The notes beneath the pieces were generated by a model. That model saw only the letters and a list, made by a program, of their open reading frames with translations, did no database searches and was not told the origin of the DNA. 35,371 bases of DNA from a virus. A program made the position numbers and the translations under genes. Location: the IMG/VR virus record IMGVR_UViG_3300010885_010561, positions 1-35,371 of that record; one strand, given 5' to 3'. Positions 1 to 13,327 of this stretch are shown in pieces (position 1 is the first letter of the stretch; each line of letters begins with the position of its first letter).

Positions 1-1
1 C

Positions 2-151
2 GTATTCTTTGTACTAACAACGGGCATCATGTTCTTTGGTGCTCATATGTGGGACGACGCGCCACGCCTAGCCTTAGTGGGTATCGTGGTATTTTCCCTG
101 TTCCTTGGCTTTCACACTAGCCAGTTCTTACAACGCTTTCAAGGAGAGTAA
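2..151 (+). CDS. C-terminal part of a small membrane protein (5' end outside window)
   Basis: An open frame enters from the left edge and stops with TAA at 149-151, giving 49 residues. They form two hydrophobic stretches (VFFVLTTGIMFFGA and LALVGIVVFSLFLGF) separated by a charged turn (HMWDDAPR), so it looks like the end of a protein with at least two membrane helices. The stop lies two bases before the ATG of the next gene, and the last codons contain that gene's ribosome binding site (AAGGAG at 141-146), which suggests coupled translation. The family cannot be named from this fragment. A phage inner-membrane protein is the simplest reading. Confidence 0.6.
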   Translation, partial: VFFVLTTGIMFFGAHMWDDAPRLALVGIVVFSLFLGFHTSQFLQRFQGE

Positions 152-152
152 T

Positions 153-455
153 ATGCTCAGCACTCATTCACGGACAAACACCAGTCACGCTCTCAGCTAT
201 ACATGGATCAGCGACTCAGGTCACGCATGGTTAGAGGTATCGATTGATGAGATAAACATACTGGGTATCGCAGAAGAGATCAGCGAGTATTCGTATATCA
301 ACGGCGAGACGGTATATTTAGAAGAAGACTGCGACGCAGGGTTATTTATAGAAGCTCTCAAAAAGAGATTACCCACGACTGAGCATGTCATGTTCACGGG
401 CAAATACATTAATGGAGACGCACCATGCAGAAAATTCAAGAGATTCGGTCAGTAA
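153..455 (+). CDS. Hypothetical protein, 100 aa
   Basis: I chose ATG 153 because AAGGAG at 141-146 sits six bases upstream. A longer in-frame TTG at 105 would lie inside the preceding gene and has no such site. The protein is mildly acidic and soluble, with a Tyr/Glu-rich centre (EEISEYSYINGETVYLEED) and no membrane segment. The last 31 bases overlap the next small gene in another frame. I do not recognise the family. It sits at the head of a run of tiny plus-strand genes typical of a phage early region. Confidence 0.7.
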   Translation: MLSTHSRTNTSHALSYTWISDSGHAWLEVSIDEINILGIAEEISEYSYINGETVYLEEDCDAGLFIEALKKRLPTTEHVMFTGKYINGDAPCRKFKRFGQ

Positions 456-583
456 GTAGTAAAGACCAAGCGGTTATTGATTTTATGATGTCAGTAACCA
501 AAGACCCTAAACTAGCCAAAGAGTTAGTTCTAAACAGCAAGTTCATCGAGCTTGTGATTCAATATCGAGAGTATTTTATTTAA
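425..583 (+). CDS. Hypothetical protein, 52 aa
   Basis: ATG 425 opens a 52-codon frame ending in TAA 581-583. It starts inside the end of the previous gene in a different frame, with GGAGACG at 414-420 just upstream as a plausible ribosome binding site. The product (starting MQKIQEIRSVSSKD) is predicted to be mostly helical and soluble, ending in Ile/Tyr/Phe-rich residues. No family is recognised. Its short length and tight packing with its neighbours are the only support besides the ribosome binding site. Confidence 0.6.
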   Translation: MQKIQEIRSVSSKDQAVIDFMMSVTKDPKLAKELVLNSKFIELVIQYREYFI

Positions 584-592
584 GGATTTAAT

Positions 593-784
593 ATGAAGAA
601 GTTGAGTATTGATATTGATGCCTTGCTTGCCGAGGCAGTCCAACACATGGAAGACGATGGCGATGTACGATGGCCAATCGGTATGGCCTTGCAGGAAATG
701 TATTGGGACAAAGGTTGGGGCGAGGTGCAAAATAGATTGGTCAAGCTCTACAACGACAAAACCAAAGACAACACTTATTCATAA
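593..784 (+). CDS. Hypothetical protein, 63 aa
   Basis: ATG 593 follows AAGGA at 582-586. The 63-residue product is acidic at the N-terminus (LSIDIDALLAEAVQHMEDDGD) and contains a Trp-rich stretch (VRWPIGMALQEMYWDKGW). It appears to be a small helical soluble protein. A parallel frame starting at 609 is its shadow. It is not recognised. It is one of eight consecutive tiny early genes between 153 and 1543. Confidence 0.65.
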   Translation: MKKLSIDIDALLAEAVQHMEDDGDVRWPIGMALQEMYWDKGWGEVQNRLVKLYNDKTKDNTYS

Positions 785-794
785 GGAGAAGTAA

Positions 795-1019
795 ATGAAC
801 AACGAAATGCCCAATTGGATAGAAGTTAAAGTACCAGTAACTAAAGCCGAAACCTTATCGATTATTGGTAGGCCATGCAAAACCTATGAGCAAGGATGCC
901 CCTCTTGCGATGCTTGGAAATCTTACAACGATCACGGTTTTATTATGGTTCTATTGGATCGTGAAGAGGTAATCAGAAGAGAAGGAGAACCAGTAATATT
1001 TGAGGAGAACCGAGCATGA
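795..1019 (+). CDS. Hypothetical protein with a CPSC motif, 74 aa
   Basis: AAGGAGAAG at 784-792 precedes ATG 795, a strong ribosome binding site. The 74-residue product has an interesting centre: Cys-29, Cys-35 and Cys-38 (GRPCKTYEQGCPSCDAW). Three closely spaced cysteines, two as CxxC, could bind a metal or act in redox chemistry, though a full zinc-knuckle set is not present. The frame ends four bases inside the next gene (ATGA). The function is unknown. Confidence 0.65.
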   Translation: MNNEMPNWIEVKVPVTKAETLSIIGRPCKTYEQGCPSCDAWKSYNDHGFIMVLLDREEVIRREGEPVIFEENRA

Positions 1020-1156
1020 ACAGTGATTTATTAGACGAGTATTGCCGATTAGAGTTTGGGCACATCGACTGGGAAGTGACCTACGAAAATGGCAACGCAC
1101 ACATAACCATGTATGCAGAACCAAGACCCGATTACATACCCGAGGAGAATGAATAA
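1016..1156 (+). CDS. Hypothetical protein, 46 aa
   Basis: ATG 1016 overlaps the previous stop as ATGA, and GAGGAGAA just upstream inside the previous gene serves as ribosome binding site. The frame ends with TAA 1154-1156, and the last A of that stop starts the next ATG. The product is 46 residues, very acidic, with a motif FGHIDWEVTYENGNAHITMYAE that looks like two beta strands. The double overlap argues that it is really translated. No family is recognised. Confidence 0.6.
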   Translation: MNSDLLDEYCRLEFGHIDWEVTYENGNAHITMYAEPRPDYIPEENE

Positions 1157-1374
1157 TGAATTGGAATCATAGAATTGTGGACATGCGCCATGAGAACGGT
1201 GGTGACCCTTGGTTTGAAATCAGGGAAGTTTATTATGAAGAGGACGGAGAAGTCTCAGGGCATACACGAATATGTACAGGGGGTGAGACGGTAGAAGGTC
1301 TTATATTCTGTCTTGAGCGTATGCTAGCGGATATTAAAGGTAAGCAAGTAATCAACGGTGAAACATTAACTTAA
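1156..1374 (+). CDS. Hypothetical protein, 72 aa
   Basis: ATG 1156 shares a base with the previous stop (TAATG) and has GAGGAGAA about eight bases upstream. The product is 72 residues. The first half reads as beta strands (WFEIREVYYEEDGEVSGHTR), followed by a helix (VEGLIFCLERMLADIKGK). This strand-then-helix pattern is common in small phage early proteins of unknown role. I do not recognise the family. Confidence 0.7.
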   Translation: MNWNHRIVDMRHENGGDPWFEIREVYYEEDGEVSGHTRICTGGETVEGLIFCLERMLADIKGKQVINGETLT

Positions 1375-1383
1375 TCAAAGGAG
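1371..1383 (+). promoter_or_regulatory. Leader/ribosome-binding motif TTAATCAAAGGAG
   Basis: This is a short form of a leader repeated before several early genes, ending in a GGAG core 7 bases before ATG 1391. It contains the stop codon of the previous gene. Compare 1544-1560, 2561-2580, 4761-4775 and 5717-5733. Confidence 0.5.
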
Positions 1384-1390
1384 AATACAG

Positions 1391-1543
1391 ATGGTAACTG
1401 AAGAAATGATTGAAGCATGGATTGGTTCAGACAACATGGGAGTTGAGGACTTTTTAGAATTACTCAGAGACATTATCAACGGGGAGTACACAGTCGAGTC
1501 TTTTAAAAAGGATGTTCTCGAATTCCACGAGGCAAACAAGTAA
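1391..1543 (+). CDS. Hypothetical acidic protein, 50 aa
   Basis: ATG 1391 follows AAAGGAG at 1377-1383. The 50-residue product is acidic and helical (MVTEEMIEAWIGSDNMGVED at the start, then FLELLRDIINGEYTVESFKK). It has no cysteine cluster or membrane segment. It is the last tiny gene before the ATPase module. No family is recognised. Confidence 0.65.
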   Translation: MVTEEMIEAWIGSDNMGVEDFLELLRDIINGEYTVESFKKDVLEFHEANK

Positions 1544-1560
1544 TTAATCAATCAAAGGAG
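1544..1560 (+). promoter_or_regulatory. Leader motif TTAATCAATCAAAGGAG before the ATPase gene
   Basis: This is a 17-base leader ending in AAAGGAG, six bases before ATG 1567. The part upstream of the Shine-Dalgarno core (TTAATCAAT) recurs before other early genes, so it may be more than a ribosome binding site. Confidence 0.5.
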
Positions 1561-1566
1561 TAAGCT

Positions 1567-2562
1567 ATGAAATACAACAACATCAAGACATCAATTGTCG
1601 AGCAATTCAAAGTACCCAACGGCAACAAGATCGTGCCGTTCATCTTAGGTGCACCAGGGGGTGGCAAGTCAGCTTGTGCCCGTGAGATTATGGAGCAACT
1701 GGATTTAGATCTTGTCGTAGAATTTACGGCGTCTCTTCGTGATCCAGTCGATGTTATGGGTACACCGAACAATCGTGACCAAGCGTATACCAAGTGGGTT
1801 CCGCCTGAGGAATTCTATAACTTGCAGACTGGGCGTGTGGGTCTGATCTTGGAAGAGTTGTCAGATGCACCGATACCCATGCAGAATGCGCTCTGTGGTG
1901 TAATCTATGACAAACGAGCTGGTGCTATTCAACTGTCCAAGGATCTGTTCATCATAGCCACGGGTAATCGTACCGAGGACAAGTCTGGTGCTAATCGTAT
2001 TACGAGTAAGCTAGCTAATCGTACCAGACGGTTCGACTTCACCGAGAACATCGATGACTGGACTACATGGGCATTGGACAATGATATCAACGAGGTATTG
2101 ATTCAGTTCTTGAGGTTCAGACCCAATCTGCTCAGCGACTTCGATGCCAATCGGTTCGCTAATCCAACGCCAAGATCATGGGAGCGTGTCAACCTTATCC
2201 CTGCATCATTACCCGATCAGTTGTTCTTTGACAATTGTGCTGGTGAGGTCGGTGAGGGTGCTAGTGCAGAGTACACGGGGTTCAAGCGTATCTATGAAGC
2301 TCTCCCCAACATGGACGCCTTGCTCTTAGACCCTAAGAATGCAGATGTACCGAGCGATCCTGCCGTGTTGTATGCCATCACTGGTGCTCTAGCCCGTAAG
2401 GCTACCAAGGATAACTTCGACAGGGTAACTGCCTATACCAATAGGTTGACGCCTGAGTTCGGTGTGATGTGTGTCAAGGATGCGATCAAGTTGCAACCGA
2501 CGATCAAGACTAGCCGTTCATTCATCGAGTGGGCGACTAAGAATGCAGAAGTGTTAATGTAA
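1567..2562 (+). CDS. MoxR-type AAA+ ATPase
   Basis: This 331-residue protein has the AAA+ core. Walker A GAPGGGKS is at residues 28-35, Walker B LILEEL at 93-98, a sensor-1 Asn in ATGN at 131-134, and a KLANRTRRF segment near 148-156 that supplies arginine-finger candidates. The length and the motif DPVDVMGTP after the first strand fit the MoxR/CobS/CbbQ branch. Such ATPases usually work with a VWA protein to remodel or activate a target, often a metalloenzyme. Two genes downstream lies exactly such a VWA protein, and the spacing (23 bp and 12 bp gaps) implies one operon. The start is set by AAAGGAG at 1554-1560. The cellular target in this phage is unknown. Confidence 0.88.
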   Translation: MKYNNIKTSIVEQFKVPNGNKIVPFILGAPGGGKSACAREIMEQLDLDLVVEFTASLRDPVDVMGTPNNRDQAYTKWVPPEEFYNLQTGRVGLILEELSDAPIPMQNALCGVIYDKRAGAIQLSKDLFIIATGNRTEDKSGANRITSKLANRTRRFDFTENIDDWTTWALDNDINEVLIQFLRFRPNLLSDFDANRFANPTPRSWERVNLIPASLPDQLFFDNCAGEVGEGASAEYTGFKRIYEALPNMDALLLDPKNADVPSDPAVLYAITGALARKATKDNFDRVTAYTNRLTPEFGVMCVKDAIKLQPTIKTSRSFIEWATKNAEVLM

Positions 2563-2580
2563 ATCAATCAAAGAAAGGAA
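2561..2580 (+). promoter_or_regulatory. Leader motif AAATCAATCAAAGAAAGGAA
   Basis: This variant of the recurring early leader sits between the ATPase gene and the next gene, ending with AAAGGAA about five bases before ATG 2586. The shared core is ATCAAT followed by an A/G-rich stretch. Confidence 0.45.
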
Positions 2581-2585
2581 ATCAT

Positions 2586-3461
2586 ATGCAGTACACAAGA
2601 CTAGCAGACAAGGTGGTATTGGTTAAGCTCACGCAAAGAAAGGCAGCACTCACTCGGCGAGATCGGGTGCTAACCAATTCGGTTCAAGCTCAATACAACG
2701 ATAGCTCACTCACGGTATTGACCAAGCTATTCAGGGACAAGAACGCACCAGTGTATAAGATCATGACCAAGTACAACGAGGTCTATTCGTATCACAAGCA
2801 AAACACTATCCCCTATGTCGATGCAGGCCCTAGGATGTTACCGTCTACGATGTACTTTGAGTATATGCAAGAGATGAAGCAACGAGTGGCCGTGGTCGAT
2901 AAGCTCATCGATCACTACATGCCATCATACGATGCTCTTGTACAGGCAGACATTATGTACAGGAACACGGGTCAAGCCAGCGGCCGTGCAAGCGTCGATG
3001 AATATCCATCAGCGGATCAATTCAGGCAGTCTATGTCGAATGATATACGGATGCAACCGATGCCCGATGCAAGTCACTTCCTGTTCGATATATCGGACGA
3101 GGACTTGGAAGCGTTCCGTAGGTCAGAGCAAGAAGCGTTAACGCTAGCCAATAACGATACGGTCAATCGTATGTTGAAACCCTTGGTTGAGTTGACTAAG
3201 AAGTTGAATGAGTTTACTGGAGATAAGGGACAGCGATTCCATAATTCATTGGTTGAGAATGTAATCGATGGGTGTAAGACAGCGCGTAAGCTAGCGCTCG
3301 ATCCTACCCCTGAGTTACTGGATCAGATCAACGAGTTGGAAAGTATGGCGGTTAAGTATCTGTCTAATGTTGAGATGATTAAGGCAAGCCCGTTCGTAAG
3401 GGACGATGCCAAGGCCAAGCTCAAAGAGATGACAGACAAGATGTCAGCGTTTGGATTTTAA
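2586..3461 (+). CDS. DUF3150-like protein, middle gene of ATPase/VWA module
   Basis: This is a 291-residue, mostly helical soluble protein. A segment near residues 75-115 (TIPYVDAGPRMLPSTMYFEY, then a long charged helix) resembles the DUF3150 family as I remember it. DUF3150 proteins are often encoded between a MoxR-like ATPase and a CobT-like VWA protein, and that is the position here. The C-terminal third is Lys/Glu-rich and may form coiled coil. I infer that it is the adaptor or target-recognition part of the module. AAAGGAA at 2575-2580 supports ATG 2586. The family assignment is tentative. The operon link is visible in the spacing. Confidence 0.6.
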   Translation: MQYTRLADKVVLVKLTQRKAALTRRDRVLTNSVQAQYNDSSLTVLTKLFRDKNAPVYKIMTKYNEVYSYHKQNTIPYVDAGPRMLPSTMYFEYMQEMKQRVAVVDKLIDHYMPSYDALVQADIMYRNTGQASGRASVDEYPSADQFRQSMSNDIRMQPMPDASHFLFDISDEDLEAFRRSEQEALTLANNDTVNRMLKPLVELTKKLNEFTGDKGQRFHNSLVENVIDGCKTARKLALDPTPELLDQINELESMAVKYLSNVEMIKASPFVRDDAKAKLKEMTDKMSAFGF

Positions 3462-3473
3462 CAAGGAGATAAT

Positions 3474-4583
3474 ATGATAACTAATTTAGACAAGGCGAAG
3501 GTAGCGATCGTTACCCAGTATCCTTTCTTTGCGAATCTATTGATGAAGCGTAAGCTAATCGTAGATCGTACGATACCAACGGCGGGGGTCGATCAGCGTG
3601 GGCAGATCTATTACAACCCTGAATTCTTTGACAAGCTCAGTGTCGATGAGCTAGTGTTCGTGTTGTGCCATGAGCTAGGCCATGTCATCGGTCAGCATGC
3701 GTCAAGGCGTGGTACTAGGAATGCTAAGAATTGGAACATAGCAGGTGATGCTTGGATCAATGACATGCTCAAGGATGCCAAGATCGGACAATTCATCAAT
3801 GGATGCGTTGATATGGCAGGGTCTAAGGATCGTACCGTAGACAGTATCTATGATGAGTTGCCTCCGCCCGAAGACGGAGATGGTCAGGGCCCAGGCGGGA
3901 CAGGCGATGACTTACTCGATAGAGGTGCTCCTCTAAGCCAAGAGGAAGCAGACAAGATCGATGCCGAGACTAGGGTTGACATAGCACAAGCGGCTCAGTC
4001 AGCCAAGGCACAGGGTAAGTTTGACGGCAAGCTAGCCGAGATCGTAGCCGAGTTGATCGAAGTCAAGACACCATGGTATGACATACTAGAGCGTTACATG
4101 GTAGCCTTTACCAAGGGAGACTATTCATGGAAGCGCCCTAACAAGCGGTTCGATGTGTACTTACCTAGCGTAGGTCAGATAGCAAGCATGGGTGAGGTGG
4201 TTATCCAGATCGATGTGTCAGGATCAATCAGCGAGACTGAGTTGAATTATTACAACGGTCATCTTGCACGCATCGTTGAGCAATGCCAGCCAGAGAGGGT
4301 GCATGTCTTGTACACCGACACTAATGTATGTAAGCATGAAGTATTCGAGCAAGGCGAGGAATTCAAACTAGAGTTCTACTCAGGTGGTGGTACGGATATG
4401 GAAGCAGGCTTTGACTTTATTGCAGAGCAAGGTATTGATCCCGAGGTATTCATCTGCCTCACAGACGGGTATACTGACTTCAATATGGAGAAAGCACCTT
4501 CATATCCAGTCGTATGGTGTATCAGTTCGACAGTCGATGCACCGTACGGAGATGTTATCCACTTTGAATTGGAGTACGCATGA
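3474..4583 (+). CDS. Metallopeptidase-like (HELGH) plus von Willebrand A domain protein (DUF2201-type)
   Basis: The 369-residue protein has two recognisable parts. The N-terminal domain carries HELGHVIGQH at residues 66-75, a zincin-type HExxH with a further His. This matches the putative metallopeptidase domain found in DUF2201 proteins. An acidic, Gly/Pro-rich linker (PPPEDGDGQGPGG) follows near residue 130. The C-terminal domain is a VWA fold with an intact MIDAS site: DVSGS at about 247-251, GGGTDM near 303-308 and LTDG near 330. VWA domains bind partner proteins through a metal ion. With the upstream MoxR ATPase it forms the usual ATPase/VWA pair. AAGGAG at 3464-3469 marks ATG 3474. Whether the peptidase is active cannot be judged from sequence. 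Confidence 0.85.
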   Translation: MITNLDKAKVAIVTQYPFFANLLMKRKLIVDRTIPTAGVDQRGQIYYNPEFFDKLSVDELVFVLCHELGHVIGQHASRRGTRNAKNWNIAGDAWINDMLKDAKIGQFINGCVDMAGSKDRTVDSIYDELPPPEDGDGQGPGGTGDDLLDRGAPLSQEEADKIDAETRVDIAQAAQSAKAQGKFDGKLAEIVAELIEVKTPWYDILERYMVAFTKGDYSWKRPNKRFDVYLPSVGQIASMGEVVIQIDVSGSISETELNYYNGHLARIVEQCQPERVHVLYTDTNVCKHEVFEQGEEFKLEFYSGGGTDMEAGFDFIAEQGIDPEVFICLTDGYTDFNMEKAPSYPVVWCISSTVDAPYGDVIHFELEYA

Positions 4584-4732
4584 GCACCGACAACAAACCC
4601 GCTATGTCCGCATTGATGGACAGTTACAAGAAACTATTACAGCATTGTTATGATGCACTAGCACCCGATGCAGACCCACAAGATCGGGAAACTTTGAGAG
4701 AATCCTTGGCTGAATTCATAGCCAAAGAGTGA
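4580..4732 (+). CDS. Hypothetical protein, 50 aa
   Basis: ATG 4580 overlaps the VWA gene stop (ATGA), so translation is probably coupled. Upstream GGAG (4571-4574) inside that gene can act as ribosome binding site. The 50-residue product is helical and acidic (LMDSYKKLLQHCYDALAPDA, then ETLRESLAEFIAKE). It ends just before a hairpin terminator, making it the last gene of the ATPase/VWA operon. No family is recognised. Confidence 0.65.
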   Translation: MSTDNKPAMSALMDSYKKLLQHCYDALAPDADPQDRETLRESLAEFIAKE

Positions 4733-4738
4733 GAGAGC

Positions 4739-4763
4739 GCCCCCTCAGGGGGGCATTTATTTA
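4739..4763 (+). terminator. Rho-independent-like terminator after the ATPase/VWA operon
   Basis: GCCCCC (4739-4744) pairs with GGGGGC (4749-4754) around a TCAG loop, followed by ATTTATTTAAT. The stem is strong. The T-rich tail is short and interrupted, so termination may be partial. It separates the ATPase/VWA operon from the gene at 4784. Confidence 0.65.
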
Positions 4764-4775
4764 ATCAATGAAAGG
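4761..4775 (+). promoter_or_regulatory. Leader motif TTAATCAATGAAAGG
   Basis: The recurring early leader directly follows the terminator hairpin and ends with AAAGG eight bases before ATG 4784. Its first bases overlap the T-rich tail of the terminator. Confidence 0.5.
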
Positions 4776-4783
4776 CAAACAAA

Positions 4784-5446
4784 ATGGCAACAGTGTATAT
4801 ATCTAAAGACTTACTTGCTAGAGTTAGTGGCAAGATTGGCAAGTTGAAGAATCACGAGAAAACAGAGGCAGTTCCTAATTACTCATACAAAATAATCGGG
4901 GTTGATGCGTCTGACTTATTTAATAAGATTCAATTTAAAGATAAACCTGAATTACTTGAGCTTATACCTAAGTCATGGTTATCGAGTCCCGAGCATGCAA
5001 ATATAGAGGTGCACACTACCAAGGATGGTGTATTGCATAAATTAGAATTGCGTGTAGAGGGAATGAAGTCTTATTTTGAGCGTCCGACTAAGGATTACTA
5101 TAATATATTACCCAATAAGTGTACTAAGGAATTCTTAGAAGCTAACTCTTATCTTACTGGGGCATACGAGCTTCTTCAGAAGACTGAACAGGCTATTACT
5201 CTTAAAGAGATTGATCTAAAATGGCAGAAGACTTTGGAACAAGTAAATCTGTTCTTGAGCAAATGCAAATCTCTTAACGAGGCAATCAAGTTATGGCCAC
5301 AAGTTGCGCTATACATTGAGGACGAGGATATGGAGAGGTTCAATAAGAAAGTTGAACGCAAAGCACGCGAGGATGTATTAGAGAACATCGATACAGACGA
5401 GCTTACAGCAGTGGCTATTGCGGCTAAGCTATCAGGGGCTTTTTAA
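4784..5446 (+). CDS. Hypothetical phage protein, 220 aa
   Basis: This is a 220-residue soluble protein. The N-terminus (MATVYISKDLLARVSGKIGK) is helical and basic. The centre has beta-strand character (ANIEVHTTKDGVLHKLELRV). The C-terminal third is a long helix pair with a sequence VNLFLSKCKSLNEAIKLWP. That Trp-Pro helix resembles a pattern I recall from phage proteins assigned to Nmad5 (a predicted nucleotide-modification-associated domain), but I cannot confirm it. AAAGG at 4771-4775 marks the start. It is isolated between a terminator and a small membrane protein gene. Confidence 0.65.
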   Translation: MATVYISKDLLARVSGKIGKLKNHEKTEAVPNYSYKIIGVDASDLFNKIQFKDKPELLELIPKSWLSSPEHANIEVHTTKDGVLHKLELRVEGMKSYFERPTKDYYNILPNKCTKEFLEANSYLTGAYELLQKTEQAITLKEIDLKWQKTLEQVNLFLSKCKSLNEAIKLWPQVALYIEDEDMERFNKKVERKAREDVLENIDTDELTAVAIAAKLSGAF

Positions 5447-5470
5447 TCAGCACTCACAATCGGAGGCCAA

Positions 5471-5683
5471 ATGAGAACACCACCGTTCAAAACTAAAAGT
5501 GGATTGGAGATAGGCATTGCCTATACTCCTCCTAACACAACAGAGTTTGATGAGTATGATGAACAGGTACAACGCGGACTATTGGGGATAAAGAAACCAT
5601 GGTACAAATGCTTCGGTCTGGTCTGTTCTTATTTGGTTTTAATCCTAGTTATTTATGGGGTAATTAGGGTTTTCACCTATTGA
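5471..5683 (+). CDS. Small single-pass membrane protein, 70 aa
   Basis: ATG 5471 follows a strong CGGAGG at 5461-5466. About 45 polar residues precede one C-terminal membrane helix (LVCSYLVLILVIYGVIRVF), ending with TY. The polar part includes a Pro/Thr-rich stretch (YTPPNTTEFDEYDEQ). The topology would place the N-terminus in the cytoplasm if the basic KKPWYK before the helix follows the positive-inside rule. The function is unknown. Confidence 0.65.
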   Translation: MRTPPFKTKSGLEIGIAYTPPNTTEFDEYDEQVQRGLLGIKKPWYKCFGLVCSYLVLILVIYGVIRVFTY

Positions 5684-5706
5684 TGTGTGTAGGATGTGTG
5701 TATAAT
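5680..5706 (+). promoter_or_regulatory. Candidate sigma70-type promoter
   Basis: A perfect -10 hexamer TATAAT lies at 5701-5706. A TTGATG at 5680-5685 could serve as -35, but the spacer is only 15 bases, shorter than the usual 16-18. It lies in a 56-bp gap before the gene at 5740. It is the clearest promoter-like site I found in the plus-strand block. Confidence 0.4.
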
Positions 5707-5716
5707 TAACAGTAAC

Positions 5717-5733
5717 TTAATCAATGACAGGAG
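5717..5733 (+). promoter_or_regulatory. Leader motif TTAATCAATGACAGGAG
   Basis: The recurring early leader begins about ten bases after the candidate -10 box and ends in AGGAG, six bases before ATG 5740. This places it at the expected 5' end of the transcript. Confidence 0.5.
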
Positions 5734-5739
5734 TTTAAT

Positions 5740-6555
5740 ATGCGCTTTCAAGTAGCTAAAAATCGATTTCATAATAAAAGAATAGTTTATCCCGAGAAAG
5801 GCAGAGCCCTTGGTAACGGTACTTACTTAAGAAAAATCAACGACACCAAGTACGAAGTATGGATGGCCTTTTCCATGTGGACTCAGAACGAAAATCAAGA
5901 TTGGATACGATCTTCTAAAGAGGTATCTTTGTTTACGATAGAGCCCTATGGAGACGAAACTTTATTAACCATAACGAACACTAAATACGACGACCTCACG
6001 GCGTCTTTCCGTTTGAGGAAATGGACAGGAGTTTCAACTGTTATTTGCGCTAAAGAATTACGGTTCTTTACTAAAGATGGATACCAAGAAGCAGTTTATT
6101 CACTGCCCGTAATGACCGAAGGCTTACAGTTCATCGTGGATAACTTGGGAAAAACACGCCTCAAAGAAGGACAGGCCTTACTCACATCAGTAAGGTTTAT
6201 TAATAAAGAAAAAGCTAAACCAGTTAACGATAACTATAAAAAGTTACTTAAGTTTGGTCAAATGTTAACAGCCCTAGAATCCGTTACCTATGAAGATGCT
6301 AGGCATAAAAAATCTGAACCTTATCTAAGTGAAGTCAAACGGGTATTGAGCGGTGAGATAGAGCCAACATTTACTAGTGTCTGTGATCTTGTTTGGTCAG
6401 ACTTACGGTACAACGAAAGAAACGAGTCCGACAGACACCCGAATGCTCACCCCGTAAACAACCAACGCGCTAAATTTGTAAGGGGATTAGTCTCCCTAAA
6501 GAAATTCTTATACAAAGAAATTGGTGTTTATCAATCTAAGGAATATAAAGCATGA
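5740..6555 (+). CDS. Hypothetical protein, 271 aa
   Basis: This is a 271-residue basic protein preceded by the candidate promoter and the leader motif. The N-terminal half is rich in beta strands and aromatic residues (TYLRKINDTKYEVWMAFSMW). The C-terminal half is helical and Lys/Arg/Glu-rich, ending with FVRGLVSLKKFLYKEIGVY. There is no membrane segment and no recognised motif. The base composition is low in GC compared with the ATPase/VWA genes (38 of 120 bases at 6181-6300 by hand count). It overlaps the next gene by ATGA. The family is unknown. Confidence 0.7.
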   Translation: MRFQVAKNRFHNKRIVYPEKGRALGNGTYLRKINDTKYEVWMAFSMWTQNENQDWIRSSKEVSLFTIEPYGDETLLTITNTKYDDLTASFRLRKWTGVSTVICAKELRFFTKDGYQEAVYSLPVMTEGLQFIVDNLGKTRLKEGQALLTSVRFINKEKAKPVNDNYKKLLKFGQMLTALESVTYEDARHKKSEPYLSEVKRVLSGEIEPTFTSVCDLVWSDLRYNERNESDRHPNAHPVNNQRAKFVRGLVSLKKFLYKEIGVYQSKEYKA

Positions 6556-6737
6556 CAGAAGCTAAAAAAAGATTCAAAGGTAAGCGTGTTACTTTGTATG
6601 TTCCCCCTGAGATCGACGATATCAGAACAAGAATACAAGACAACATAGGAGTTCCCATGACTTACCCTCAAGTGTTTGCATTCCTTGTTCACTTCTACAA
6701 CAAGCATGCTAGCGAACCACGGACACAATGGAGATAA
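6552..6737 (+). CDS. Possible ribbon-helix-helix DNA-binding protein, 61 aa
   Basis: ATG 6552 overlaps the previous stop (ATGA). The 61-residue basic product begins MTEAKKRFKGKRVTLYVPPE. A basic N-terminus, then a strand ending in a PP/EI turn, then two helices fits the ribbon-helix-helix fold of small regulators. The second helix region is PQVFAFLVHFYNKH. I infer a transcriptional regulator or DNA-binding accessory protein. The match is to the fold pattern only, not to a named family. Confidence 0.6.
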   Translation: MTEAKKRFKGKRVTLYVPPEIDDIRTRIQDNIGVPMTYPQVFAFLVHFYNKHASEPRTQWR

Positions 6738-6739
6738 CC

Positions 6740-6880
6740 ATGACTGATGATGAAATCATAGAGCAGATACTCGCTAATAATTGGTGGCCTTTTGATTGCG
6801 TTGATCCCAAGATACTTCAACAGGCCATGCGTAAAAGCAAGCAAGATCAATTGAATGAAGTAGGGGAGGCGTTGTTATGA
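6740..6880 (+). CDS. Hypothetical protein, 46 aa
   Basis: ATG 6740 has GGAG at 6730-6733, six bases upstream. The 46-residue acidic product contains an aromatic motif (NNWWPFDCVDP) between two helices. It ends with an ATGA overlap onto the next gene. It belongs to the chain of coupled tiny genes from 6552 to 8139. It is not recognised. Confidence 0.6.
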   Translation: MTDDEIIEQILANNWWPFDCVDPKILQQAMRKSKQDQLNEVGEALL

Positions 6881-7035
6881 ATAAATTTATGGTTCAAAAT
6901 GAATTCGGTGTATGGGTACTCGATATCTTTGCGCTGTGGCTAGACACTCACAATCTCGGTGACATTGACAATCCGAACCCAATACACAATGTCGTGCCAA
7001 TAGATATATTTTTGATTGGAGTAAGCAATGACTGA
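6877..7035 (+). CDS. Hypothetical protein, 52 aa
   Basis: ATG 6877 overlaps the previous TGA (ATGA), with GGGGAGG at 6862-6868 as ribosome binding site. The product is 52 residues, hydrophobic-aromatic at the N-terminus (FGVWVLDIFALWLDTHNLGD) and then Asn/Pro-rich. The frame runs eight bases into the next gene. No family is recognised. Confidence 0.55.
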   Translation: MNKFMVQNEFGVWVLDIFALWLDTHNLGDIDNPNPIHNVVPIDIFLIGVSND

Positions 7036-7240
7036 CACAACAGGATGGCGTAAGAGACAAATGAAATTAATTGATTTGCACTGGAGCTACATTAAAGGCG
7101 AAGGCCGTGTTAAATACACCAAGGAATTTGATGAAACGGATAATATTGTGAAACTTGATATGTTGCAGGATGTCATTGCCGACTTAAAAGACAAATACAA
7201 TTCTTTGCTATCTCAACCTACCTCTGAGAAGAACACATGA
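7028..7240 (+). CDS. Hypothetical protein, 70 aa
   Basis: ATG 7028 follows TTGGAG at 7016-7021 and overlaps the end of the preceding frame. The 70-residue product is charged and helical, with a likely coiled-coil-forming C-terminal helix (LDMLQDVIADLKDKYNSLLS). The stop overlaps the next ATG (ATGA). The function is unknown. Confidence 0.65.
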   Translation: MTDTTGWRKRQMKLIDLHWSYIKGEGRVKYTKEFDETDNIVKLDMLQDVIADLKDKYNSLLSQPTSEKNT

Positions 7241-7350
7241 ACACATTCTTAAATATATTAACTTGGTTTTTTATATTTACTGGCGTACTAGGCATAGGCA
7301 TTCTAGTATGGTTCATCATGTGGACTATCACAGAAGGGGTTGATCCGTGA
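7237..7350 (+). CDS. Tiny membrane protein, 37 aa
   Basis: ATG 7237 overlaps the previous TGA, and its own stop overlaps the next start (GTGA). Nearly all of its 37 residues form one membrane helix (WFFIFTGVLGIGILVWFIMW) with short polar ends. Overlaps at both ends suggest coupled translation. It could be an accessory membrane factor of infection. Nothing in the sequence defines the role. Confidence 0.6.
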   Translation: MNTFLNILTWFFIFTGVLGIGILVWFIMWTITEGVDP

Positions 7351-7541
7351 AGACAGTACATGCTCATCGGTTTGTTATCATAAAAAAAGGAGGGCAGTAT
7401 GTAAAACCTTTTCTTGATGACTCACCATATTTATTTTTTAAAACTAAACGAGACGCAGAACGAGCGTGCACATTTGATATGCCAAAAGATTACACAGTCA
7501 TTCGCGTGAGGGTAACGGTAGAGCCCGTTAAGTCTTTATGA
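7347..7541 (+). CDS. Hypothetical basic protein, 64 aa
   Basis: This frame starts with GTG at 7347, overlapping the previous TGA, with AGAAGGGG upstream at 7332-7339. The 64-residue product is basic and beta-rich (TVHAHRFVIIKKGGQYVKPF, later YTVIRVRVTVEPVK), with a charged helix (KTKRDAERACTF) between. The pattern of strands, helix and strand suggests a small compact fold. It is not recognised. The stop overlaps the next ATG. Confidence 0.6.
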   Translation: MKTVHAHRFVIIKKGGQYVKPFLDDSPYLFFKTKRDAERACTFDMPKDYTVIRVRVTVEPVKSL

Positions 7542-7756
7542 TTCCACAACCACAATATCAGCACTTACTTGATAGACTTATTCGTATAGAAACGCGTCAA
7601 GTAAAAATTATGGAAGCATTACGAATCGACCCATACACGGGACTACCAACAAGAAAGGAAAACTATGAAAGCGGACGAGACACAAATCGGGGGGACTCAC
7701 TACAAGGACATGACGATCCAACCTTGGACAGTTTTAGAAAACGTCCTAACTACTGA
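7538..7756 (+). CDS. Hypothetical protein, 72 aa, overlapping the DUF3310 gene
   Basis: ATG 7538 overlaps the previous stop (ATGA). The first 45 residues look natural, with a helical segment (YQHLLDRLIRIETRQVKIME) that could form coiled coil. The last 30 codons lie inside the DUF3310 gene in another frame and give a low-complexity polar tail. The long overlap (92 bp) lowers confidence, but there is no other frame covering 7542-7664, so the gene probably exists. Confidence 0.5.
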   Translation: MIPQPQYQHLLDRLIRIETRQVKIMEALRIDPYTGLPTRKENYESGRDTNRGDSLQGHDDPTLDSFRKRPNY

Positions 7757-7907
7757 TGAGTTTATTGGATTCTTGAAGGGTAACATCATCAAGTATGCCA
7801 TGCGTCAAGGTAGAAAAGATTCAGACGATGGCGGTAAGGCACTGCACTATTTGCAGAAACTAAAGGAGCTACAAGATGTCAATTTCAACAGCAACTGGAA
7901 TACTTAA
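7665..7907 (+). CDS. DUF3310 family protein
   Basis: This 80-residue protein has the hallmarks of DUF3310: GGTHYKDMTIQPW at residues 9-21, then a helix with GFLKGNIIKYAMRQGRKD, and a final helix KALHYLQKLKEL. The family is widespread in phages of many hosts, usually near nucleotide or replication genes. Some members are loosely annotated as nucleotide kinase, but no P-loop is present here. AAAGGA at 7655-7660 supports ATG 7665. The biochemical role is not known. Confidence 0.88.
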   Translation: MKADETQIGGTHYKDMTIQPWTVLENVLTTDEFIGFLKGNIIKYAMRQGRKDSDDGGKALHYLQKLKELQDVNFNSNWNT

Positions 7908-8139
7908 TTCACAAGCAAGCATCCCCTTAGGCCAAGCACAAAAGCAATGGGCAACACAGGAGTTTGCATCTGATACGGTGTTTTCGGGGTATGTGCGTGT
8001 GGACAAACTACTCAACGGATATGTCGTTCACTTCTCAAAGAATGAAGGATCGATTACACAAAAGTATGTGGCGCTAACCATAAAAGAAGTCAACGAGATC
8101 ATCACATCAGAGATGGTTAAATTTAAATTGGAGAGTTAA
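7876..8139 (+). CDS. Hypothetical protein, 87 aa
   Basis: ATG 7876 lies inside the end of the DUF3310 gene and has AAAGGAG at 7863-7869. The 87-residue product is mixed alpha/beta with a beta-rich middle (VFSGYVRVDKLLNGYVVHFS) and a C-terminal helix (IKEVNEIITSEMVKFK). Its stop TAA is immediately followed by the polymerase start. No family is recognised. Its position suggests a replication-linked accessory protein, which is inference only. Confidence 0.65.
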   Translation: MSISTATGILNSQASIPLGQAQKQWATQEFASDTVFSGYVRVDKLLNGYVVHFSKNEGSITQKYVALTIKEVNEIITSEMVKFKLES

Positions 8140-10020
8140 TTGACACCCGTATACATTGACTTTGAAACGTACTACTCAGCTACGCATTCTCTAACCAAGA
8201 TGTCGGCAACAGAGTATGTTATGCACCCTGAGACTGAGTTGATCTCATGCGCTTACAAGATAGGCGATGAAGAAACTATCGTGGTCTTTGGTGAAGATAA
8301 GGTTAAGGAAACCTTACAGGCAATTGATTGGTCAGATAAGATGGCCATTGGACATAACATGTCAGGGTTTGATTCGTGCATCATGGCATGGAGGATTAAT
8401 TTAAAACCTGCGATGTGGGGCTGTACTCAGGCTATGGCAACTAGCAAGTACAAAAAGACTTGTGGAGTAAGCTTGAAAGCACTAGCTCATGAGCTGAGCT
8501 TGGGCGCGAAAATGGATTTACTTACTAAGGGTAAACACCTAAGTGATCTGACTACTGCTGATATAAATCAGCTACGAGATTACAACAAGATGGATGTTGA
8601 CCTGTGTGCTAAGTTGTTCAAGGCGTTAGCCAAGGGATTCCCTAAACAGGAGATGCTACTCATAGACATGACAACGAGGATGCTTGTTGAGCCTAAACTT
8701 GAGTTGGACTTTGCCATGGTAGATCAAGCCCTGATCGATGTGAAGGAAGAAAAGAAACAATCCCTCATCGACTTGGCGACCATATTAGAAGTATCAGGAG
8801 ACGAAGATCGAATCAAACTTGAGCTTGCGAGTTCATTAAAGTTCGGTACTTTACTGCAATCTTTGGGCGTGGATGTGCCTCAAAAACCCTCACCAACTAA
8901 CCCTGAGAAGATGACTCATGCTCTGGCCAAGACAGACGAAGGCTTCCTCCAATTGCTCGATCATGCAAACCCACTTGTCTCTGCGGCGGCGCGGGCTCGC
9001 CTTGAAGTAAAGTCTACCATACTAGAAACGCGTCTAGAAGCATTTGTACGAGCGGCCAGGGCCGTGGGCGGTAAGCTACCCGTACCACTAAAGTACTGCG
9101 GTGCGGATACTACAGGTCGATGGTCAGGCGAACAGTACAACATGCAGAACCTACCTAGGGTAAACCCGAAGTTATCAAAGCCTAGCGATGCGTTGAGGAT
9201 GAGTCTGCGTGCCCCGAAGGGTAAGATGATTATTGTGGCTGATCTGTCGGGTATTGAGTTGCGTGTCAATCATTATCTGTGGAAGGTACAAGCATCGATG
9301 GACATGTACGCTGCCGATCCCGAAGCTGACTTGTACAAAGCGTTTGCGTCTGCAAGGTATAAGATCGATCCAGAACAGGTGACAAAGGATCAACGGCAAC
9401 TAGCCAAGGTAGCTCAGTTAGGCCTAGGATTTGGGGCTGGTGCACCTACATTTAAGAAGGTGGCTAAGCTCATGGGTGGGCTAGAGTTGAGCGATGAAGA
9501 GTCTCTTGCCATCGTTACCGACTGGCGTCAAACGTACTCAGATATTGTGGACGGGTGGAAACTGTTTCAGCACTCATTAACCGACATGATGCAAGGAACG
9601 GAGAAAGCAATTGACCCATGGGGTTTGTGCGTAACGGAACATAGGGCTGTAAGACTACCATCAGGCAGGAGTATCTATTACCCTGAGTTGCGAAAAGAAA
9701 ACACCAATGGTAAGTACGATTACTTCTATGGTGCAGGCCGACATAAAGCAAAGATTTACGCTGGAAAGGGCGTAGAGAATTTAGTTCAAGCCTTGGCAAG
9801 AGATGTGATCGCTGACAATTCAATTGAGTTCAAGAGATTAACTAAGCTTTCACCAACGCTCATGGTGCATGACGAACTGGTCTATGTAGTGCCTGAAAAT
9901 TACGCAGAAACCTTGCTCAAGTTACTACATAAAATTATGCGTACACCGCCTAAATGGTGGCCTGAATTAGTGACATGGTCAGAGGGTGATATGGCTGAAT
10001 GTTATGGCGATGCTAAATGA
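8140..10020 (+). CDS. polA: Family A DNA polymerase with 3'-5' exonuclease
   Basis: This 626-residue replicative polymerase has a DEDDy proofreading domain and a Pol I-type core. Exonuclease motifs: D7/E9 in YIDFETY, N73/D78 in GHNMSGFD, and Y148-D152 in YNKMD. Polymerase motifs: A with D368, S370, E373, R375 (ADLSGIELR); B with R419 and K423; C with H577-D578-E579 (VHDE). The O-helix reads RQLAKVAQLGLGFG, placing Leu (427) where E. coli Pol I has Phe762 and Phe (431) where it has Tyr766. There is no 5'-nuclease domain. The start is TTG at 8140, directly after the previous TAA, supported by GGAG at 8130-8133. It would copy the phage genome with the downstream PrimPol-helicase. Confidence 0.95.
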   Translation: MTPVYIDFETYYSATHSLTKMSATEYVMHPETELISCAYKIGDEETIVVFGEDKVKETLQAIDWSDKMAIGHNMSGFDSCIMAWRINLKPAMWGCTQAMATSKYKKTCGVSLKALAHELSLGAKMDLLTKGKHLSDLTTADINQLRDYNKMDVDLCAKLFKALAKGFPKQEMLLIDMTTRMLVEPKLELDFAMVDQALIDVKEEKKQSLIDLATILEVSGDEDRIKLELASSLKFGTLLQSLGVDVPQKPSPTNPEKMTHALAKTDEGFLQLLDHANPLVSAAARARLEVKSTILETRLEAFVRAARAVGGKLPVPLKYCGADTTGRWSGEQYNMQNLPRVNPKLSKPSDALRMSLRAPKGKMIIVADLSGIELRVNHYLWKVQASMDMYAADPEADLYKAFASARYKIDPEQVTKDQRQLAKVAQLGLGFGAGAPTFKKVAKLMGGLELSDEESLAIVTDWRQTYSDIVDGWKLFQHSLTDMMQGTEKAIDPWGLCVTEHRAVRLPSGRSIYYPELRKENTNGKYDYFYGAGRHKAKIYAGKGVENLVQALARDVIADNSIEFKRLTKLSPTLMVHDELVYVVPENYAETLLKLLHKIMRTPPKWWPELVTWSEGDMAECYGDAK

Positions 10021-12943: not shown

Positions 12944-13327
12944 ATGAAAATATCAGATGCAGTAGAAATCTACATCAAACTCCGTGATAAGAAAGCTCAA
13001 TTAAAATCAGAGTTTCAAGAAGCGGTTGCACCAGTTCAAGTAAAGATGGATAAACTCGAAGCCAAATTTCTTGAGATCATGAACACAACAGGAGTCGATT
13101 CTCTTAAAACAGAACACGGCACTGCTTACTCTAGCACTAGATCGTCTGCATCGGTAGCTGATAAAGATGCCTTTTTTACTTTCGTAAAAGAAAATAATGA
13201 ATGGCCATTGATAGAAGTCCGTGCATCGTCGACTGCTGTAAAAGAATTCGCTGAAGCTAACGAAGGCGAGTTACCCCCAGGAATCAACTACAACGTTGAA
13301 CGTACAATAAACATCCGCAGATCATAA
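12944..13327 (+). CDS. Conserved-type phage protein with coiled-coil N-terminus, 127 aa
   Basis: This is a 127-residue acidic protein. Residues 1-45 form a long charged helix likely to be coiled coil (KLRDKKAQLKSEFQEAVAPV). The second half contains DSLKTEHGTAYSSTRSSASV, then DKDAFFTFVKENNEWPLIEV, and a final PPGINYNVERTINIRR. I recall this layout from small phage proteins encoded directly upstream of the ssDNA-binding-like protein, as here. The biochemical role is unknown. A partner of the following protein is plausible. AAAGGA at 12933-12938 supports the start. Confidence 0.7.
   Translation: MKISDAVEIYIKLRDKKAQLKSEFQEAVAPVQVKMDKLEAKFLEIMNTTGVDSLKTEHGTAYSSTRSSASVADKDAFFTFVKENNEWPLIEVRASSTAVKEFAEANEGELPPGINYNVERTINIRRS

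Follow-up and report, generated by a model that had tools for sequence, protein, structure and literature searches.

The window in the present study, i.e. the whole stretch of DNA that was analyzed, is a 35,371-base IMG/VR record (IMGVR_UViG_3300010885_010561) of an uncultivated bacterial virus, which is probably a fragment. Its plus strand carries at positions 1567–4583 a triad of genes for an AAA+ ATPase that probably belongs to the MoxR/midasin clade, a mostly helical middle protein, and a protein that joins a zincin-like metallopeptidase to a von Willebrand factor A (VWA) domain. We tentatively propose, at slightly under an even chance, that these genes encode one ATP-driven remodeling machine with a DUF3150-type adaptor, which acts in the replication or establishment phase and does not chiefly serve the virion. 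This proposal draws on the invariant linkage of the three genes in viruses, their intact motifs, purifying selection, their position on the replication arm, and the presence of the same triad on plasmids.

Results

Viral loci were collected by a scan with the VWA protein (54 loci) and by an independent scan with a middle-protein alignment (80 loci); the two sets overlap in contigs. The middle gene was found in 125 loci, a count that includes the window, the cyanophage MinM2, and overlapping stretches. The triad was complete in 109 of these loci, and the genes followed the order ATPase–middle–VWA on one strand in every case (109/109). The remaining 16 loci were incomplete, and the absent gene would lie close to or at the edge of the available stretch. 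The distances within the 109 triads ranged from 9 to 2062 bp between the ATPase and middle genes and from 4 to 1345 bp between the middle and VWA genes, with up to approximately 2 kb taken up by other genes. When the middle proteins were grouped at 80% identity, 23 of the 24 clusters held a complete triad (lowest pairwise identity, 38%). Such linkage, maintained despite the turnover of other genes, is strong evidence for a shared function of the three genes. A preliminary description of this DNA, made from the sequence alone, had read the genes as one module, and the neighborhood survey agrees with it: the middle gene co-occurred with the ATPase–VWA pair in all of the flanked viral loci. Many relatives also have two recurring small genes between the middle and VWA genes, which encode an apparent membrane protein of approximately 65 aa and a protein of approximately 180 aa (e.g. 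L015:5256-5992, L020:5256-5992, and L052:5251-5984); the window is without them at this place.

A middle protein was not detectable in several elements with the pair only, namely, the phages N4, LUZ7, SBP1, and S-TIM66, a jumbo phage, a Rhizobium phage, and an Acinetobacter phage-like plasmid. In the ATPase and VWA trees, triad and pair-only labels cluster; their deep order is weak (21/64 support in the ATPase tree and three changes in the VWA tree) and cannot tell one origin of the triad from several.

The third gene of the triad (3474–4583; 369 aa) encodes a DUF2201 protein of the N4 gp25 family, with the metallopeptidase domain at its N terminus and the VWA domain at its C terminus. It matched PF13203 (DUF2201_N; 1.5e-46, 159.7 bits vs. 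a cut-off of 23.2), PF09967 (DUF2201; 4.8e-21, 75.6 bits vs. 26.4), and phrog_1314 (6.9e-92), and its family was matched in 702 phage records. The putative zinc-binding and catalytic motif HELGH lies at 3669–3683, and the metal ion-dependent adhesion site (MIDAS) is composed of DVSGS (4212–4226), T307 (4392–4394), and D331 (4464–4466). HExxH and all three MIDAS elements were invariant in 18 relatives. A second motif, NxAxDxxxN (residues 88–96; 3735–3761), offers N88, D92, and N96 as candidate additional ligands of the kind expected in a zincin. Among nine phage and plasmid proteins, most of which are 25–34% identical to that of the window and one of which is closer at 62%, H66, E67, H70, N88, A90, D92, and N96 were invariant, as were D247, S249, S251, T307, and D331 of the MIDAS. 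The invariance of these residues across phage and plasmid homologues argues that the zincin-like and MIDAS sites are both likely to be functional.

The AlphaFold2 (AF2) model of this protein was moderate (predicted local distance difference test [pLDDT] score, 70.5). In a fold search of the PDB, its VWA half matched solved VWA domains at Z 11–12 and nothing beyond that half was matched; the VWA domain of NorD (9qhe_G) was among the matches, as a generic VWA fold. Over the zincin-like region, MJ1213 and an M48 peptidase were matched weakly. The name “HNH endonuclease” is attached to phrog_1314, to N4 gp25 in NC_008720, and to many RefSeq schitovirus records. We rejected it for this family: the Pfam hits were DUF2201_N and DUF2201, and no HNH model was matched.

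The ATPase (1567–2562; 331 aa) matched phrog_1297 at 1.5e-62 and belongs to the N4 gp24 family. In tblastn searches, it aligned near full length with proteins of N4-like phages (Schitoviridae), cyanophages, and Bacillus phage G at approximately 27–33% identity, and the family was matched in 758 phage records. Midasin was the best solved-structure match of a family profile of 11 proteins (1.6e-29), and other AAA proteins scored far lower. We assigned a Walker A motif, GAPGGGKS (1648–1671), a Walker B motif, LILEE (1843–1857), a sensor-1 residue, N134 (1966–1968), and a sensor-2-like residue, R203 (2173–2175); these role names are borrowed from AAA+ proteins by analogy. The P, G, G, and K of Walker A, N134, R152, and R203 were invariant in 11 phage and plasmid homologues, and the Walker B motif has DD or DE in most of the other homologues. 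The window ATPase has the expected P-loop features, including Walker A and B, sensor 1, and conserved arginines. The domain matches and invariant residues confirm the anatomy given in the preliminary description, an ATPase followed by a VWA protein with both HELGH and an intact MIDAS. In LUZ7, the product of a gene just upstream of the gp24-like ATPase (L219:3049-3891) weakly matched the ATPase profile (16.5 bits, E = 2.6e-4) and is possibly a degenerate ATPase paralogue.

The middle protein (2586–3461; 291 aa) showed no significant Pfam or PHROG match of its own; PF11348 (DUF3150) did not match it. It is predicted to be mostly helical (AF2 pLDDT, 80), and its model matched the fold of a phage protein named DUF3150 (E = 2e-11, TM-score 0.68). 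Profile intermediates point the same way. The viral middle-protein profile reached plasmid proteins at 73–79 bits, and a Cupriavidus plasmid relative, which is annotated as DUF3150, scored 22.1 bits against the PF11348 cut-off of 24.9. Moreover, a seven-sequence profile including the window protein matched the distant protein L201 at 2e-29, and L201 matched PF11348 at 4.8e-12. Through these intermediates, the middle protein appears to be DUF3150-like at the superfamily level and not a member of the Pfam family. The label “DUF3150-like” in the preliminary description thus stands as a superfamily link, supported by the intermediates and the fold match, and falls as a direct PF11348 match; among the Pfam families suggested there for the three proteins, the DUF2201 domains were recovered, whereas AAA_5 was below threshold for the ATPase.

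Two motifs of the middle protein, DAGPRxLP (2820–2843) and HFLFDIS (3075–3095), showed little or no variation among 20 viral relatives, and the R, L, and P of RxLP were retained in plasmid and cyanophage relatives. A fold search of the PDB revealed no solved relative (all E > 0.1); the helical bundles at Z 9–12 in this search may, according to the warning of the tool, reflect just a common arrangement. A protein of mycobacteriophage Dylan from the viral fold search was discarded, being neither tied to the triad nor matched by a profile.

The plus strand of the left half of the window runs from small genes through the module to a DNA polymerase gene (8140–10020), and its replication genes also include those for an exonuclease-like protein, a helicase, and a large primase/helicase-like protein. 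The virion and lysis genes occupy the minus strand of the right half. The window triad shares its strand with the DNA polymerase gene, and a virion gene is on the other strand. The arrangement was the same in all 11 long relatives, where the VWA gene was on the polA strand, 2.7–7.3 kb upstream of polA and opposite a virion gene. A virion-protein homologue was used in this comparison because the search for a terminase (PF03237) in the long relatives found nothing. The ATPase–VWA pair also precedes the helicase and polymerase in N4, LUZ7, and SBP1, and gp24 and gp25 are middle genes of N4 (PMC4193335). These observations support the replication arm as the setting of the module and do not speak for early expression. 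A 127-aa protein encoded on the replication strand of the window (12944–13327) matched a PHROG family named “minor head protein” (5e-29) and is out of place there; this family is possibly misnamed.

The full triad was also found on Burkholderiales plasmids, such as pBMC401 and pRK1-1, and in 58 of 61 cellular loci. Two of the three incomplete loci end at contig ends, and the third (L200) has a truncated middle gene. Homologues of VirB11 and VirB4 were present in 40 and 39 of the cellular loci, respectively, and a PRTRC ThiF gene in 16. These loci are not independent events because they are dominated by related Burkholderiales. No virion genes were in view near the plasmid triads, and no provirus turned up when cellular genomes were scanned with the alignment of viral middle proteins. 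Upstream of the ATPase gene in Cupriavidus pRK1-1 is a gene (L137:5042-6601) for a 519-aa protein outside the known Pfam families, with homologues in 47 cellular loci. The ATPase of the MinM2 triad (L001) grouped with that of a Rhodovastum plasmid (L225; 100/99), as did the VWA proteins (90/93), which suggests exchange between phages and plasmids.

Distant DUF3150 proteins of planctomycetes and deltaproteobacteria (L201–L218) are mostly encoded beside an AAA ATPase of approximately 500 aa (PF00004), with no DUF2201-VWA protein. One of these loci (L212) also holds genes for a single-stranded DNA-binding protein, a PD-(D/E)XK nuclease, and a UvrD helicase. Another (L208) also has ThiF and JAB-like genes and resembles a PRTRC cassette. 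The IncC plasmid pAR060302 has an AAA gene, ssb-bet-exo, a DUF3150 gene, and a VWA gene side by side.

Regarding the locus itself, the coordinates in the preliminary description were exact for all features, namely, the three open reading frames (ORFs) with their gaps of 23 bp (ATPase–middle) and 12 bp (middle–VWA), a 50-aa gene that overlaps the stop of the VWA gene by ATGA (4580–4732), and a terminator-like GC-rich hairpin followed by a T-rich stretch (4739–4754). Most viral relatives have a homologue of the 50-aa gene after the VWA gene. A comparison with the relative L011, whose VWA protein is 82% identical to that of the window, shows purifying selection on all four ORFs (dN/dS, 0.07–0.14, and 0.07 for the 50-aa gene; Nei-Gojobori method), although for the middle gene dS approaches saturation. 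The hairpin is the most GC-rich among the terminator-like sites of positions 1–9000, and these sites were not clearly above shuffles (10 found vs. a mean of 6.0, SD 2.5). Sigma-70-like sites were fewer than in shuffles.

Discussion

By analogy with MoxR-VWA systems, we infer a complex of the three proteins, the direction in which it acts, cleavage, and the type of client. The AAA+ ring would pull on or remodel the client. The VWA protein would dock on the ring and present client peptides through its MIDAS, a site with a role in client binding (PMC7159879), and the zincin-like domain may clip the client. The helical DUF3150-like protein would be an adaptor or specificity subunit; since its presence is what sets triads apart from pairs, it is the best candidate for client recognition. 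During replication or establishment, the client may be a complex, either DNA-processing or nucleoprotein, that belongs to the element or to its host. Two observations point this way: the triad is common to phages and to plasmids with no virion genes in view, and genes for replication, recombination, or transfer are repeatedly found close to DUF3150 loci. A more far-reaching form of this proposal, which we consider rather doubtful at present, is that the triad is an AAA+ protease-remodeler of mobile DNA that is exchanged between phages and conjugative plasmids and unfolds or cleaves a DNA-bound complex for replication or establishment, with N4 gp24/gp25 as its two-subunit version.

Several points weigh against the proposed machine. 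The pair can work without a middle protein, since pair-only phages lack a detectable one. Nor is the adaptor role specific to this pair, because the distant DUF3150 proteins mostly partner a different AAA ATPase and no DUF2201-VWA protein. Adjacency to replication genes may reflect the timing of expression rather than the client. Furthermore, the folded models are of single chains.

The preliminary description favored host takeover or counter-defense. In such a scenario, the machine would take apart or cut a complex of the host, such as RNA polymerase or a defense or recombination complex, at an early stage of infection or of the entry of a plasmid. The triad is common to phages and to plasmids, and many of the latter have conjugation genes; both kinds of element encounter the same host defenses. 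The module is on the replication arm, and the zincin motif is intact. However, the sigma-70-like sites, which were fewer than in shuffles, do not speak for early action. The pair is also core in N4-like phages whose hosts differ widely (PMC4193335), which suggests housekeeping over a host-specific weapon. Apart from a Walker-A match of 26 residues to IetA and a marginal match to a homing-endonuclease model, a PADLOC scan detected no defense component. We regard this explanation as unlikely.

The preliminary description had set virion assembly aside on the basis of gene position, and the opposite strands of the triad and a virion gene in the window and all 11 long relatives likewise do not favor assembly. 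A role as a chaperone-protease in assembly has been proposed for the jumbo-phage pair (PMC7824862) and partly shown for p618 and p892 of Acidianus two-tailed virus (ATV), in which p618 interacts with the VWA protein p892 and with virion proteins (PMC4124505). Homologues of gp24/gp25 are near virion-protein genes in roseophage RPP1 (PMC4193335), and the pair lies next to structural genes in S-TIM66, in an Erwinia jumbo phage, and in a Rhizobium schitovirus. Assembly is thus possible for pair-only phages and less likely here. Plasmid triads have no virion genes in view, and a virion-only role is unlikely for the triad because the same triad sits on Burkholderiales plasmids beside VirB4/VirB11; overall, we consider assembly to be improbable for the window module. 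Even less probable, and in our opinion very much so, is the loading of a metal or cofactor, as by CobS-CobT or NorQ-NorD, onto a metalloenzyme of the element or host. MoxR-VWA pairs load metals and cofactors in cells, and the NorD VWA domain was among the fold matches. The pair of phage 0305phi8-36 was read as a metalloprotein chaperonin in 2007 (PMC2147016). However, no conserved metalloenzyme gene was noticed beside the triad in the annotated viral and plasmid loci, and HExxH would be an unexplained extra.

In comparison with these alternatives, the remodeling machine of the replication or establishment phase is the reading that we prefer. The ATPase–VWA pair was already known, as N4 core genes and from jumbo phages; the third linked partner and the triad on plasmids may be new. 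The identification of the pair with the N4 gp24/gp25 core-gene family and the plasmid triads go beyond the preliminary description. A third partner that is always linked in one large phage group, together with a trio beside a plasmid type IV secretion system (T4SS), shifts the likely role away from virion assembly. Two systems are accessible for tests of its function, namely, a plasmid from Burkholderia or Cupriavidus and, where the pair is concerned, coliphage N4. The literature that we searched did not mention DUF3150 and contained nothing on the triad, which is weak evidence for novelty because it covered few subscription papers; the main text of a CRISPRi-ART study did not mention phage N4 or MoxR.

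Among known systems, N4 gp24/gp25 are core genes of N4-like phages with a function that is not known (PMC4193335). They encode a homologous ATPase and DUF2201-VWA protein in the same order and on the same strand, upstream of the helicase and DNA polymerase genes; however, they lack a detectable middle DUF3150-like protein and are 26–27% identical to the window proteins. The jumbo-phage pair has the same two-protein architecture, with an N-terminal metallopeptidase fused to the VWA domain, whereas it occurs as a pair alone and, in Erwinia phage pEa_SNUABM_47, among structural genes. ATV p618 and p892 are also a viral MoxR ATPase and its VWA partner, and p892 binds p618 and raises its ATPase activity (PMC4124505). 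They differ in their role in tail development and in the absence of a peptidase domain from p892 (PMC7824862), and were likened here by description only. Midasin (Rea1/Mdn1), the AAA+ modules of which gave the best solved match, similarly works with a MIDAS domain. It differs in having six fused AAA modules and the MIDAS on the same chain, and acts in eukaryotic ribosome assembly. The IncC set also comprises an AAA ATPase, a DUF3150 protein, and a VWA protein with HExxH (HEAAH). However, its ATPase and VWA protein are from other families (no significant profile match), and its DUF3150 protein matched the window family weakly (E = 0.0085; hhalign probability, 25%). The triads of the Burkholderiales plasmids pBMC401 and pRK1-1 differ in their location beside T4SS or PRTRC genes and in a middle protein with 22–26% identity, and share with the window three homologous proteins in the same order and with close spacing.

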